Source: Verrucomicrobiota bacterium (lineage in GTDB: Bacteria; Verrucomicrobiota; Verrucomicrobiia; Opitutales; Opitutaceae). Taken from it: DNA of 64,000 bases. The translations under genes and the position numbers were made by a program. The stretch covers positions 1 to 64,000 of the forward strand of contig JACRKC010000082.1 of assembly GCA_016235555.1 (NCBI GenBank). Reading direction: 5' to 3'. The notes beneath the pieces are model-generated. The model was not told the DNA's origin. It saw only the letters and a program-made list of their open reading frames with translations, and made no database searches. This document shows positions 20,613-61,761 of this stretch, one piece after another (position 1 is the stretch's first letter; every line of letters begins with the position of its first letter).

Positions 20613-22370
20613 ATGATTTTAATTCCGCAAAAGGTAGGAGCCTGCTTGCAGGCGATTTCGTGGCACGGGTCTCCCGACCCGTGTTCGGTTTCACGGGTCA
20701 GGAGACCCGTGCCACTCCAAGCCATCGCCCTTCTTCTCTCCCTCCTTGCGCTCGCGAGTCCCGGCACCCTCGCCCAGCCCGCCCCGCGCAAAGTCGATCG
20801 CGCGCCCGCCACCGCGACGATCATCCCGCTCTCGGAAAACTGGCGCCTCGATGGCGACGTGCCCGTCCACGCGCTGCTCATCTCCCTCCAAGGCCTCGCC
20901 AACCGCGACTACCCGCGCCTCTACCTCGAATACCCGAAGAACTGGCAGTGGGAAATCGTCCACCCGCTCGTCGGCTTCCTCGAGAAACGCCACGGCGTGA
21001 AATTCGAGCGCCTCGGCCTGAACGACGCCGACGCCGCCCTCGCCAAGTTTGCCCGCCACGCCAAGGGCTACGTCGTCTGGGATCGCGCCGTGCGCTCCTC
21101 GCTCACGGTCGCGTTCACCATCGCGGGCGTCGAAGACGCCGTGATCGTCCGCGACGACCAGATCGCCCTCGCCGAGAAACACGGCCTCAAGAAACTCGCC
21201 GACCTCCGCGGCCAGTTCACCGGCATGCCCGATCACCAGATCTACCAGTGGGCCTACGACCGCTATTTCGAAAAATGCTCGCGCGACTACTACGTCGTGC
21301 TCGGCGGCCACGCCGGCGCCGAGATGCAGCCCGCCATCGGCGACTTCGGCATCATGCAGCGCGCGTTCTTCACCGACCTCTCCGCCAACCCGAAGCACGT
21401 CGAGGAACTGGCGCTCCTCAAAAAAATCTTCGGCCGCCAGAACCCCGCGAGCATCGTGCTCGGCTGGCATTCCTACGCCAAGGACACCGAGGGCCAGCAC
21501 ACGACGCTCGTCGGCAACTTCGGCCTGAAGATGGAGGGCCTGCACAACCTCCCCAACGTCTCCTTCACCTGCCAGATTCCGCTTACGCCGGACTTCAAGT
21601 TCACCAACAACCACGCCGTCACCCGCGACGCCAAGCTCACCGCCGAGAAAAAAGTCTACGTCTGCGCCGCCGCCACCGACTCGATGGGCATCGGCACCTG
21701 GACCAAGCCCGGCCGCGGCAAGATCCCCTACACCTGGCAGGTGCTCATGAACTGGTCGTGGATGAACCCGCCCGCCCTCCAGTTCTTCTACGAGGACAAG
21801 ACGCCCAACGACTACTTCATCGGCGGCCTCAGCGGCCCGGGCTACATGTATCCCAAGTCGATCCCCGCGGAAAAATTCCCCGCGCTGATGAAGAGCGCCC
21901 GCGAAATGATGGCCACGCTCGATCTCCGCGTGATGGAGATCATGGATTACTCCGAGGGCAACCGCCACGTCGGCAACACCGACCTCCCGAAAGCTGTCGT
22001 CGACCTCTACTATCGCGAATTCCCCGACGTGCTCGGCTTCATCAACGGCTACGGCACCGCGCGCACGTTCGATCTCCGCGACACGCGCCCGTTCATCAGC
22101 TACGACTACTACCTCGACGTCGCGCGCCCCGGCGAGGAAGCCACCGCCGATCTCGAGGAACTCATCCAGCTCAACCCCGCGCGTCCTTACTTCCTGCTGA
22201 TGCACGTGCGCGAATCCAACACCATCGAGAAGGTCGCCACGATCCTGAACAGCCTGAGCGAACCCGTGGAAGTCGTCCCCCTCGACAAATTCCTGAAACT
22301 CGCCGCCAGCGCCAAAACCTACCGCACCCGCTACCAGCAGCCGACTGATCCGGTGGACCACAACCCGTAG
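20613..22370 (+). CDS. GxGYxYP-family exported protein
   Basis: Up to 585 residues. The conserved block GGLSGPGYMYPKSIP gives the family its name; the family is associated with carbohydrate loci, with an N-terminal domain and a barrel-like putative hydrolase. The start is uncertain: the ATG at 20613 gives a 34-residue n-region encoded by REP DNA before the hydrophobic core LQAIALLLSLLALASPG, and a GTG at 20709, itself inside the repeat, would give a short signal peptide. Either way a repeat supplies the 5' end. It lies 14 bp after the previous gene. Substrate unknown. Confidence 0.75.
   Translation: MILIPQKVGACLQAISWHGSPDPCSVSRVRRPVPLQAIALLLSLLALASPGTLAQPAPRKVDRAPATATIIPLSENWRLDGDVPVHALLISLQGLANRDYPRLYLEYPKNWQWEIVHPLVGFLEKRHGVKFERLGLNDADAALAKFARHAKGYVVWDRAVRSSLTVAFTIAGVEDAVIVRDDQIALAEKHGLKKLADLRGQFTGMPDHQIYQWAYDRYFEKCSRDYYVVLGGHAGAEMQPAIGDFGIMQRAFFTDLSANPKHVEELALLKKIFGRQNPASIVLGWHSYAKDTEGQHTTLVGNFGLKMEGLHNLPNVSFTCQIPLTPDFKFTNNHAVTRDAKLTAEKKVYVCAAATDSMGIGTWTKPGRGKIPYTWQVLMNWSWMNPPALQFFYEDKTPNDYFIGGLSGPGYMYPKSIPAEKFPALMKSAREMMATLDLRVMEIMDYSEGNRHVGNTDLPKAVVDLYYREFPDVLGFINGYGTARTFDLRDTRPFISYDYYLDVARPGEEATADLEELIQLNPARPYFLLMHVRESNTIEKVATILNSLSEPVEVVPLDKFLKLAASAKTYRTRYQQPTDPVDHNP
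20634..20715. repeat. REP hairpin plus REPIN at the 5' end of a gene
   Basis: A single GTAGGAGCCTGC-family hairpin (20634-20659) abuts a complete GTGGCACGGGTC...GACCCGTGCCAC pair (20660-20715). Both are translated in frame as the N-terminus of the GxGYxYP protein. Relatives are at 54084 (first family) and 59969 (second family). Confidence 0.85.
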
Positions 22371-22379
22371 CGACCACCC

Positions 22380-22640
22380 TCAGAACATCCGCCCGAAATC
22401 CTGCCGCGTGCCGACCCACAGTCAGACGACGTTTTCTCCGTCACGCCGGCACACGGCCCGATAGCCGCCGCCGAAACGCAACGACCAAAGATTGCCGGGG
22501 CTATTCAACTTCTTGAAGCGCAGGCTGGGATGATCCGGGTTGGCCATGAAAAGCCGGTAGGCTTGGCGCGATTGAGCCCGCACCGGTTCCGGCAGCAGGT
22601 GGTAGAGCCGCCAGAACTCTTCGGTTCCTGCCGATTTCAC
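22380..22640 (-). pseudogene. RelE/ParE-type toxin with premature stop
   Basis: A GTG start at 22640 overlaps the antitoxin stop as GTGA. The protein reads RelE/ParE-like (FWRLYHLLPEPVRAQSRQAY, SLRFGGGYRAVCRRDGENVV) but ends at a TGA at 22422-22424 after 72 residues. Reading through in frame gives LWVGTRQDFGRMF and a natural stop at 22380, matching the usual WxWxGxHxxY-like end of this family; the TGA sits exactly where Trp is expected. A TGG-to-TGA nonsense change is the simple explanation, removing a terminal strand and probably activity. Confidence 0.75.
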
Positions 22641-22906
22641 AGTCGCGCCGGGTCAATCCGCCGCGGCTTTTCGCGGGCGACACATTCATCCGCCCAGCGC
22701 ACGAGGTTCGCCACCTTGGCCGGGTCGTTGAAATCGCGCGCCCACGCCGCCTCGTCCTCTTCATCCACCTTCTCGAATGCGACCTGCGCCTCCTGCGCCT
22801 TGAGGAACTGTGCAAACGCCAGCAACGAAGACTGGCGCGCCGGATCGAGGCTGCTGCACAGCTCGGCCACCGCCTCGGGCGTGGAGGGAGTCAGCGTGTT
22901 GGGCAT
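22637..22906 (-). CDS. Antitoxin-like protein
   Basis: 89 residues, acidic and helical: EAVAELCSSLDPARQSSLLAFAQFLK then a flexible tail (EEDEAAWARDFNDPAKVANLVRWADE). The stop overlaps the toxin start, the classic type II toxin-antitoxin layout. The DNA-binding fold is not obvious. It appears intact while its toxin is truncated. Confidence 0.65.
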   Translation of the reverse strand: MPNTLTPSTPEAVAELCSSLDPARQSSLLAFAQFLKAQEAQVAFEKVDEEDEAAWARDFNDPAKVANLVRWADECVAREKPRRIDPARL

Positions 22907-22990: not shown

Positions 22991-23687
22991 TTAGTCGTTT
23001 TTTTCGAGAATAGCGGCGTCCAACGGTAGTTCCTCTTCAGTGTCGCCCGTTGATTCACCCCGATCGCCGGTTAGAACGCTGGCAATAAAATCAAAGCTGC
23101 TAGCGCCGACCTTTTCAGTGAAATCGACTTTGGCTGTTGCGATCGTCGTGAAATAGCCTCGAAACGCTGCGGAGACTTCAGTCGCCCATGCTTTTGATTT
23201 TGGAACCGGGATTCGCACTTCCAAGTAACGGTCGCCGCAATCCTCACGATTTGTCTGCATCAGGGTCACACGTTGCCACTGCCTCCTCGTAGCGCGGAGG
23301 CAAAGCGCCCAAAACATGTAAAAAGGATCCCACCCTTCGTCGTTGGCGTCGGCCACGCGGACGACGAAGACTTCTTTAGTGACGACGATCTGCTCTTCAC
23401 CGGGTAGGAGAATAACCGTGCGCTGCGGATTTCGCCCAAACGCGGTCATTCCCACAGCGACGCGATGAGGCACGGCCCAGAAGCGGTCGCCGAAGGGCAC
23501 CACGGTGTCGTGGCCGTAGAGCACGAAGCCGGCGGCGAAGCGTTTGCCGGCCGCCGTCGCGAGCTTGCGCAGGCCACGCCCGAAGCCCGTCGGATCGCGC
23601 CGCGCGGCCTCGAGGGTTGTGACATCATCGAACGTGAGGAACGGCCGGCCGTCGTCCGCCAGCGTGGCGTGCCGGACTGACGCGGAC
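22991..23687 (-). pseudogene. Chimeric remnant: DUF4143 ATPase end fused to restriction-modification end
   Basis: The open frame joins two unrelated family fragments. Upstream (about 23450-23687) reads HATLADDGRPFLTFDD and then KRFAAGFVLYGHDTVVPFGD, which match the start of the AAA_14 module and the C-terminus of a DUF4143 ATPase with the middle missing. Downstream (22991 to about 23440), EGWDPFYMFWALCLR and QRVTLMQTNREDCGDRYLEV resemble the C-terminal part of type I-type restriction-modification methylase/specificity proteins. Its only start codon lies inside the adjacent transposable element. Almost certainly non-functional debris of a lost defence or mobile region. Confidence 0.65.
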
Positions 23688-23830
23688 GGGTGTGACTCAA
23701 ACAACTGAGGTCAGCGATTTGTAGCGGCGGTCTATGACCGCCGAACGAAGACCCTTGGGCAACGCCGGCGGTCATAGACCGCCGCTACAGCCGAGGCATT
23801 CGGAAACTGATCTCAGTTTGAGTTACGCTC
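23688..23830. mobile_element. MITE-like element copy 1, 9-bp target duplication
   Basis: A 143-bp element beginning GGGTGTGACTCAAAC and ending with the inverted form (GTTTGAGTTACGCTC). It is flanked by the 9-bp direct repeat GACGCGGAC at 23679-23687 and 23831-23839. Its core (23721-23788) is a REP pair GTAGCGGCGGTC...GACCGCCGCTAC. It interrupts an AAA_14 ATPase gene at its P-loop. No coding capacity. Confidence 0.9.
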
Positions 23831-23909
23831 GACGCGGACCGTTGATCAGCACCACGCCGGTGTCGGCCAGCGCCGTGCGCAGTCGGTCGGTGATGAAGCG
23901 CGGGGGCAT
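23831..23909 (-). pseudogene. N-terminal fragment of AAA_14/DUF4143 ATPase
   Basis: From the ATG at 23909 the minus strand reads MPPRFITDRLRTALADTG and VVLINGPR, the usual start of AAA_14 ATPases up to the Walker A loop, and then runs into the element. Deleting the element and one 9-bp duplicate gives GPRQSG, the beginning of a GPRQSGKTT P-loop, followed by a small frame-shifting deletion. The remainder is in the chimeric frame at 22991. Confidence 0.75.
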
Positions 23910-24087
23910 GGTGGCAGCAGTTTGTCGGGCAGGAAACCGTCCGGCCGTTTGAAGGCGAAACGCCGACCAATTGAAAGCGGTCTGGGCTAAGACTTTGTTC
24001 CGTAGTTAATAATACCACGGCCAGCAGTTGCGATGGAATCACGGAGACACTGCATGGCACATCTCACTTTCTTGCAGCGAGGCGAAA
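23910..24087. other. Non-coding, gene debris
   Basis: No gene, RNA or promoter recognised. It lies between the ATPase remnant and a run of three repeats that fill 24088-24521. Confidence 0.4.
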
Positions 24088-24168
24088 GGTGGGCCGGCCG
24101 CTCCGCGGGCGGCCAGGGGCGGGTGAGAACTGAAGTCAACTGGCCGTGCGCGGAGCGCCCCGCCCACC
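24088..24168. repeat. Paired-hairpin repeat, GGTGGGCC family
   Basis: GGTGGGCCGGCCGCTCCGC on the left is matched in inverted form by GCGGAGCGCCCCGCCCACC on the right; a diverged copy of the perfect element at 9088. Confidence 0.75.
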
Positions 24169-24254
24169 CTCTGGCACGCGCACTTCGCAGAAAATTGAGA
24201 TGCGTCCGACACTGCATGGCGGAGCCGCAACCAAAGCCACGGACAAAAACAACT

Positions 24255-24370: not shown

Positions 24371-24445
24371 AAGCCTGAGCGATGCAGCGTTGAATTCGAG
24401 CGCCCGATTGAAAAGCAAAGGCGGCGATGAGCCCAAAAATACAGA

Positions 24446-24521
24446 GCGTCAGAAGTCGCCGACCGAGATTGGCAACGCGTAGCGGCGGGCGTCCCTGCCG
24501 CTACACCGCGGCTTCTGACGC
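24446..24521. repeat. Hairpin within hairpin, GTAGCGGC family
   Basis: Outer arms GCGTCAGAAGTCGC (24446-24459) and its near-perfect inverse (24508-24521) enclose GTAGCGGCGGGCGTCCCTGC...CTAC (24479-24504), related to the core of the MITE-like elements. It sits in the 30 bases before the dehydrogenase 3' end. Confidence 0.65.
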
Positions 24522-24550
24522 CGTGTATCGCGAGGTGCCCATCAACAGGC

Positions 24551-49159: not shown

Positions 49160-49315
49160 TCACTCTCCCGCCGCTTTGAGCACCTTCTCAACCAGACCTT
49201 GGTCAACAAGAAGACCATGCTGGCGCAATGCCTCCAACTCCGGCGCGAGTGCGGCGATCAGACCGTGGCGTTTGGAGGGTTGAGGCAAGTTCGAGTATTC
49301 CGCTTGGGCCCCGAT
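49160..49315 (-). pseudogene. 3' remnant of a DUF3368/PIN-type toxin gene, frameshifted
   Basis: The minus strand reads KRHGLIAALAPELEALRQHG and ends KVLKAAGE with a stop at 49160, the usual C-terminus of DUF3368 PIN-domain proteins (RGLIPA..PLL..L...GF.....LV..VL..AGE). Just upstream the neighbouring frame gives GILELAS, the preceding GTLGILELA motif, so a frameshift separates them. The gene is cut at 49315 by a MITE-like element and its 5' part is missing beyond it. Confidence 0.6.
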
Positions 49316-49509
49316 GGGTGTGACTCAAACTGATGTCAGGAAACGGCGAAAAAGCCTGCCCAAGGCACACGCTCACCGGCGCCGGCTCGGCGTAGCGGTG
49401 GGCGTCCCTGCCCGCCGATTCAGGACTTTCGCCCGATCCCTCGGCGGGCAGAAACGCCCGCCGCTGCAACCGAGGCCTTCGAGCACCGACATCAGTTTGA
49501 GTTGCACCC
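49316..49509. mobile_element. MITE-like element copy 2, 9-bp target duplication
   Basis: A 194-bp element starting GGGTGTGACTCAAACTGA and ending with the inverse (CAGTTTGAGTTGCACCC). Flanked by the direct repeat GGCCCCGAT at 49307-49315 and 49510-49518. Its core (49392-49467) is a diverged GTAGCGG...CCGCTGC hairpin pair. The left interior differs from copies 1 and 3. Confidence 0.9.
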
Positions 49510-61620: not shown

Positions 61621-61761
61621 GGGTGCAACTCAAAGTGCGGTCAGTTTTCGAATGCCCCGGCTGTAGCGGCGGTCTATGACCGCCGACGTTGCGCCAAGGG
61701 CATTCGTTCGGCGGTCATAGACCGCCGCTACAAATCGCTGACCTCAGTTTGAGTCACACCC
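61621..61761. mobile_element. MITE-like element copy 3, 9-bp target duplication
   Basis: 141 bp, inverted relative to copy 1. Ends GGGTGCAACTCAAAG and GTTTGAGTCACACCC. Flanked by the direct repeat CGTAACGCT at 61612-61620 and 61762-61770. Core REP pair GTAGCGGCGGTC...CTAC at 61663-61731. It lies in the gap after purB, which otherwise holds nothing recognised. Confidence 0.92.

Follow-up and report, generated by a model that had tools for sequence, protein, structure and literature searches.

The stretch of DNA analysed here (the window) comprises 64,000 nt from Verrucomicrobiota bacterium (assembly GCA_016235555.1, contig JACRKC010000082.1, positions 1 to 64,000, forward strand). Within it, an AAA_14/DUF4143 ATPase gene is broken by a MITE, a short element (143 bp here) without coding capacity for a transposase. 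Very probably, a transposase acting in trans inserted the MITE within the Walker A codons of this gene, duplicating 9 bp of the target; the enzyme most likely belonged to the ISKra4 family, part of the prokaryotic Mutator superfamily. The gene is now a pseudogene with three lesions besides the insertion. As damage to a gene, the insertion is of an ordinary kind; it brings to light a high-copy element family together with its likely transposase family. The features of the locus, and the two further copies of the element in the window, are as follows.

23688 to 23830, plus strand: MITE (nonautonomous element), 143 bp.
23679 to 23687: target-site duplication, copy 1, GACGCGGAC.
23831 to 23839: target-site duplication, copy 2, GACGCGGAC.
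23688 to 23714, plus strand: left terminal inverted repeat, with a 3-nt insertion relative to the 24-nt consensus GGGYGTRACTCAAACTGAGRTCAG; missed by an ungapped scan owing to this insertion.
23807 to 23830, minus strand: right terminal inverted repeat, one mismatch to the consensus.
23721 to 23743, plus strand: GTAG-type REP, dimer unit 1.
23766 to 23788, minus strand: GTAG-type REP, dimer unit 2, inverted.
23832 to 23909, minus strand: ATPase remnant, N-terminal piece up to the GPR of Walker A; 77% identity over 26 aa to the homologue L073; overlaps the target duplication.
23570 to 23662, minus strand: ATPase remnant, middle piece (LADDGRPFLTFDD...GRGL), not in the frame of the N-terminal piece; 31 aa align with the closest homologues at 71 to 77% identity.
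23468 to 23575, minus strand: ATPase remnant, C-terminal piece; 68 to 78% identity to the closest homologues; GL common to the joint with the middle piece.
23446 to 23466, minus strand: ATPase remnant, end (IASLWE, then stop), frame shifted by one nucleotide relative to the C-terminal piece.
49316 to 49509, plus strand: second copy of the element in the window, 194 bp; its GTAG-type pair is a different one, and its 9-bp duplication is GGCCCCGAT.
61621 to 61761, minus strand: third copy of the element in the window, 141 bp, with the 9-bp duplication CGTAACGCT, between adenylosuccinate lyase and response regulator genes.

A preliminary description of this DNA had placed an element inside the P-loop codons of an AAA_14/DUF4143 ATPase, with an insertion point readable to the base, and our coordinates and anatomy agree with it. 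On the minus strand, positions 23909 to 23832 encode MPPRFITDRLRTALADTGVVLINGPR, which runs into the element as described; the reading is cut between 23831 and 23830, and both 9-bp GACGCGGAC copies are exact. The duplication takes in the greater part of the Gly-Pro-Arg codons plus the first base of the codon that follows, which places the insertion inside P-loop coding sequence. Beyond the element, in the gene's own frame, GPR continues into QSG before the frame is lost, and excision thus restores GPRQSG as had been proposed. The whole remnant spans 23446 to 23909.

The three gene fragments are collinear on intact AAA_14/DUF4143 ATPases of related genomes. By blastp, the N-terminal 26 residues matched the start of L073 (40.8 bits, E = 1.5e-9), the middle 31 residues its residues 40 to 70, and the C-terminal piece its residues 358 to 403; several loci represented by a wrong-frame ORF, among them L041, L084, L086, L092, and L099, were not counted as homologues in this comparison. 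The alignment with intact DUF4143 ATPases, which the preliminary description had put forward as a check, thus places the pieces in order on the same ORFs. Both homologues that were scanned carry AAA_14 (E = 1.1e-24 for L073 and 2.7e-23 for L075) and DUF4143 (E = 1.5e-44 and 2.5e-45, respectively), and the three scanned window ORFs overlapping the remnant or the element had no Pfam match. When 79 aa of the downstream flank served as the query, 24/150 family genomes, the own genome included, gave matches. In 10 of the other 23, two pieces of the query fell on one ORF of 408 to 464 aa; in one genome (G095), they fell in two open frames. Judged by these alignments, both flanks belong to one AAA_14/DUF4143 ATPase gene.

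The three further lesions lie downstream of the GPR codons. The ten codons that separate GPR from the middle piece in the closest homologues correspond to 17 nt in the window, a net loss of 13 nt that removes the Walker A lysine and the following loop residues and shifts the frame; the small frameshifting deletion noted earlier is therefore present, and the loop is damaged beyond its interruption. Where the middle piece meets the C-terminal piece, an in-frame loss has removed 299 or 300 residues (897 or 900 nt, depending on the homologue), with GL shared by both sides; this bears out the reported loss of the central domain. To these we add a frameshift just before the stop: one extra nucleotide near the end of the remnant puts the probable natural stop at 23446 to 23448, which appears to be the ATPase gene's own, out of frame. 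With Walker A interrupted and shortened and 299 or 300 residues gone, the window copy has no complete Walker A or DUF4143. A listed ORF (22991 to 23704) extends through the remnant into the next ORF.

The sequence gives no order for the insertion relative to the other lesions. There is an even chance that the gene was already dead when the element landed, in which case the insertion was a neutral passenger; this reading departs from the main one only in the timing of the insertion. In its favor, the three lesions are independent of the element, prokaryotic MITEs are normally intergenic according to part of a review (PMC10969869), and the third copy in the window sits between two genes. However, the lesions carry no date, and all that the perfect duplication indicates is an insertion of no great age. 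A possible gene fragment also adjoins the second copy, and insertion into coding sequence may therefore not be rare in this family. Either the insertion or an earlier lesion would have released the ATPase gene from selection.

The element belongs to a large family. At up to 3 mismatches, the end GGGYGTRACTCAAACTGAKRTCAG occurs 338 times in the 8.03-Mb genome (165 forward and 173 reverse; reversed control, 0), which corresponds to some 170 copies provided that each has one end of either kind. We compared 48 distinct copies with distinct flanks, drawn from the loci fetched and hence biased to copies like the one in the ATPase gene and to exact ends. Their lengths range from 99 to 195 bp, with 39/48 at 140 to 142 bp. 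At fixed borders, an exact 9-bp repeat flanks 18/48 copies, and a repeat with at most 1 mismatch flanks 28/48; among shuffled pairs (n = 23,479), the corresponding values were 0 and 0.05%. The other 20/48 copies have no 9-bp repeat at this tolerance at the fixed borders, and a few of them have repeats of other lengths. The family is thus a MITE family: short, bounded by terminal inverted repeats, accompanied by a target-site duplication, and present at many unrelated sites. As single-stranded DNA, the MITE copy in the ATPase gene folds into one long hairpin of −52.8 kcal/mol (average of shuffles, −20.7; z = −12.3). A stop-free-frame test on 46/48 copies left genic and intergenic sites indistinguishable in this GC-rich DNA. 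The second window copy is preceded by a 51-aa open stretch (49160 to 49315) that ends at the element and has a subthreshold DUF3368 match (E = 4.8e-4); this copy may lie in another gene remnant, possibly a second gene cut by the family.

Outside this genome, a search of 37 relatives with the complete element gave no match. Of the 251 other family genomes, none of which belongs to the genus of this bacterium, 14 contain the end pattern, with 1 to 15 ends each; the control gave two hits over all 252. Three end pairs in one of these genomes (G130) span 145 bp, and other genera thus seem to have short elements of a related kind. A scan of named genomes, a set that may leave out the own or very near genomes, gave no match to the exact inner 20 nt of the end.

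A candidate for the mover comes from a degenerate 859-bp element on contig C139 of the same genome. Its terminal repeats fit those of the MITE with 1 and 3 mismatches, and between them lies the tail of an ISKra4 transposase (NF033572, E = 7.3e-21); no exact 9-bp duplication was found at its borders. The ISKra4 transposase model has three matches in the genome, two over the cutoff and this tail. A related genome (G040) has a gene akin to those of ISKra4 transposases, 61% identical to the C139 tail over 96 aa, with a MITE-type end (3 mismatches) at its terminus; the stop codon of this gene falls within the repeat, the gene is cut short by the contig border, and the assignment was made by tblastn only. 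Mutator-like prokaryotic elements, the ISKra4 group included, are described in part of a published account (PMC3942029) as having 18- to 39-bp inverted repeats, a conserved terminal C, and 8- or 9-bp duplications, and the MITE agrees with them in repeat length, terminal C, and duplication. The same part reports insertion upstream of sigma-A promoters for several ISKra4 members. Taken together, the mover of the MITE is likely an ISKra4-family transposase.

Other candidate parents were rejected. The genome holds two full-length ISKra4 elements (L118:6043-7544 and L119:3303-4796), with transposases 84% identical and ends unlike those of the MITE. The one on contig C44 is 1,494 bp long, with GGGCGCA ends and a perfect 9-bp duplication; its relative on C1 is 1,502 bp long, with a duplication matching at 8/9 positions. 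Because their ends (GGGCGCA...) differ, these are relatives rather than the parent. An ISKra4-like gene in a further genome (G005) has no MITE-type ends around it, and for an IS4/IS5-type parent, none of the four PF01609 matches in the genome has a terminal repeat at up to 6 mismatches in its locus. Two lone MITE ends (L053:1501-1524 and L059:1501-1524) have no partner at up to 6 mismatches within about 1.5 kb, and no transposase was recognized by eye in the ORF lists of these loci. Among the listed part of 330 end positions in the assembly of 140 contigs, no intact autonomous element with GGGYGTRACTCAAACTGA ends was seen.

The core of the MITE is a second kind of repeat. It consists of two inverted units, GTAGCGGCGGTCTATGACCGCCG, and forms a GTAG-tagged REP dimer in the sense of PMC3733652. 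The 23-nt unit occurs 365 times in the genome at up to 1 mismatch and not at all in 37 relatives. We selected 20 core loci by eye as being without a listed near-perfect end, two of which (C10:56565 and C16:22727) nevertheless had one. In 9/20, no end was present at up to 7 mismatches within about 400 bp on either side, and the other 11 have at least one. The REP dimer therefore also exists free of terminal repeats (as a single unit in one of the nine loci); the spacers of the free dimers are 12 to 36 bp. Within the MITE, the cargo varies: at least two different REP pairs occur in the same terminal repeats, the 181- to 195-bp copies carrying a different GTAG-type pair, and the 99-bp copies hold a single REP unit. 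Orientation and loop could be read in 26 copies; in 3 of them (L047, L056, and L066), the REP loop is inverted with respect to the outer arms, as though recombination of the dimer's own arms had flipped it.

In the simplest reading, the MITE captured GTAG-REP dimers, which would then have been amplified along with it. In its fuller form, this reading has two mobile systems combined in one element: an ISKra4-type MITE would have captured GTAG-REP cargo more than once, and a Mutator-like transposase would have spread REP dimers through the genome instead of, or besides, RAYT; we regard this form as tentative, its chances falling somewhat short of even. A very improbable alternative is that the moving unit is the GTAG-REP dimer itself (a REPIN, moved by a RAYT tyrosine transposase), with the outer inverted repeats serving as a preferred target or as a passenger. 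The form of the core and the nine sampled loci outside terminal repeats are compatible with it, as are the 10 Y1_Tnp (RAYT-type) matches in the genome, all above the cutoff, two of whose loci (L230 and L237) contain the exact 10-nt tag GTAGCGGCGG. GTAG dimers inside long palindromes are likewise described for A. variabilis in part of PMC3733652. Nevertheless, the 9-bp duplications lie at the outer terminal repeats and not at the dimer, and a single strict pattern of two units describes 26/48 copies, whose loops are mostly similar; amplification of the composite would be expected to give this result. Moreover, the full 23-nt unit at up to 6 mismatches is in none of the 10 Y1_Tnp loci; thus, no RAYT-type gene there is flanked by the same REP.

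That the two flanks of the element are different genes joined by rearrangement, with GPRQSG arising by coincidence, is hardly credible: the flanks are short and partly out of frame, but their pieces align in order to the same ORFs, intact homologues carry every piece on a single ORF, 15 distinct homologue segments (14 from other genomes and one from an own paralogue) have an uninterrupted GPRQxGK[ST] loop, and shuffled N-terminal pieces reached at best 21.9 bits in 200 trials versus 40.8 for the real one. The preliminary description, which had named different-gene flanks as the finding that would overturn it, therefore stands on this point. It had also suggested looking for an intact orthologue at the same site. 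None was found in relatives' loci around the neighboring cytochrome-type gene, and the empty site is for this reason inferred from homologues elsewhere. In this sample (the best 80 of 98 named loci with a relative of the cytochrome-type gene, some of which end at contig ends), the ATPase and the GxGYxYP gene had no match at E = 1e-6, and the ParE-like ORF had a match in one locus. A query with the downstream ORF matched only loci of the window itself.

The surroundings of the remnant contain further small features. A 152-aa ORF (22991 to 23449) directly follows the remnant, its start overlapping the remnant's stop; it has no match in NCBIfam, PADLOC, or Pfam and may represent the C-terminal part of a type I restriction specificity protein. 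Two small overlapping minus-strand ORFs (22422 to 22906), the downstream one matching Pfam ParE_like (E = 5.6e-6), are perhaps a toxin-antitoxin pair. Other inverted structures include a hairpin element at 24439 to 24528, with 21-nt arms (86% complementary) around the GTAG-type palindrome GTAGCGGCGGGCGTCCCTGCCGCTAC; an imperfect 40-nt inverted repeat at 24077 to 24179 (78%, 23 nt between arms); and, by eye, a GTGGCACGGGTCTCCCGACCCGTG-like palindrome present as inverted copies in the intergenic stretch at 20660 to 20717.

The locus thus shows to the base where one member of a MITE family with some 170 genomic sites has interrupted a gene, and the degenerate element bounded by MITE-type ends connects this family to ISKra4 transposases. 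Should REP dimers move as cargo of MITEs, RAYT activity would not have to be the only source of REP numbers in Opitutus-like genomes. MITEs, ISKra4 elements, GTAG-REP dimers, and DUF4143 ATPases were each known before; the MITE family described here is new, is tied to ISKra4 elements, and has REP dimers as cargo. Such a family is not named in the titles and abstract openings listed for ISKra4 and MITEs, for Verrucomicrobia MITEs, or for REPINs, MITEs, and RAYT.

Compared with the ISKra4 family (p-MULT 4) and its nonautonomous derivatives, the MITE shares the 9-bp duplication, has 24-bp repeats that begin with G and end with C, and has a counterpart in which a transposase remnant of this family lies between MITE-type ends. 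It differs in that it lacks a transposase, has a REP dimer as its core, and has no intact autonomous partner among the elements seen. The GTAG-tagged REP dimers (REPINs) show the same arrangement as the core, a GTAG followed by a short palindrome, with two units in opposite orientation, whereas many of the dimers here lie inside a MITE with a target duplication. The GTAG-15 dimers of Anabaena variabilis, in the section of PMC3733652 devoted to them (section 7), are likewise regularly nested in a longer palindrome; that palindrome differs in sequence, and section 7 mentions no target duplication or transposase for it. Finally, the window pieces are 61 to 78% identical to the closest intact AAA_14/DUF4143 ATPases (PF13173 and PF13635; L073 to L078), with lower identity to others, but the window copy, unlike these, is broken in four ways, the element included.
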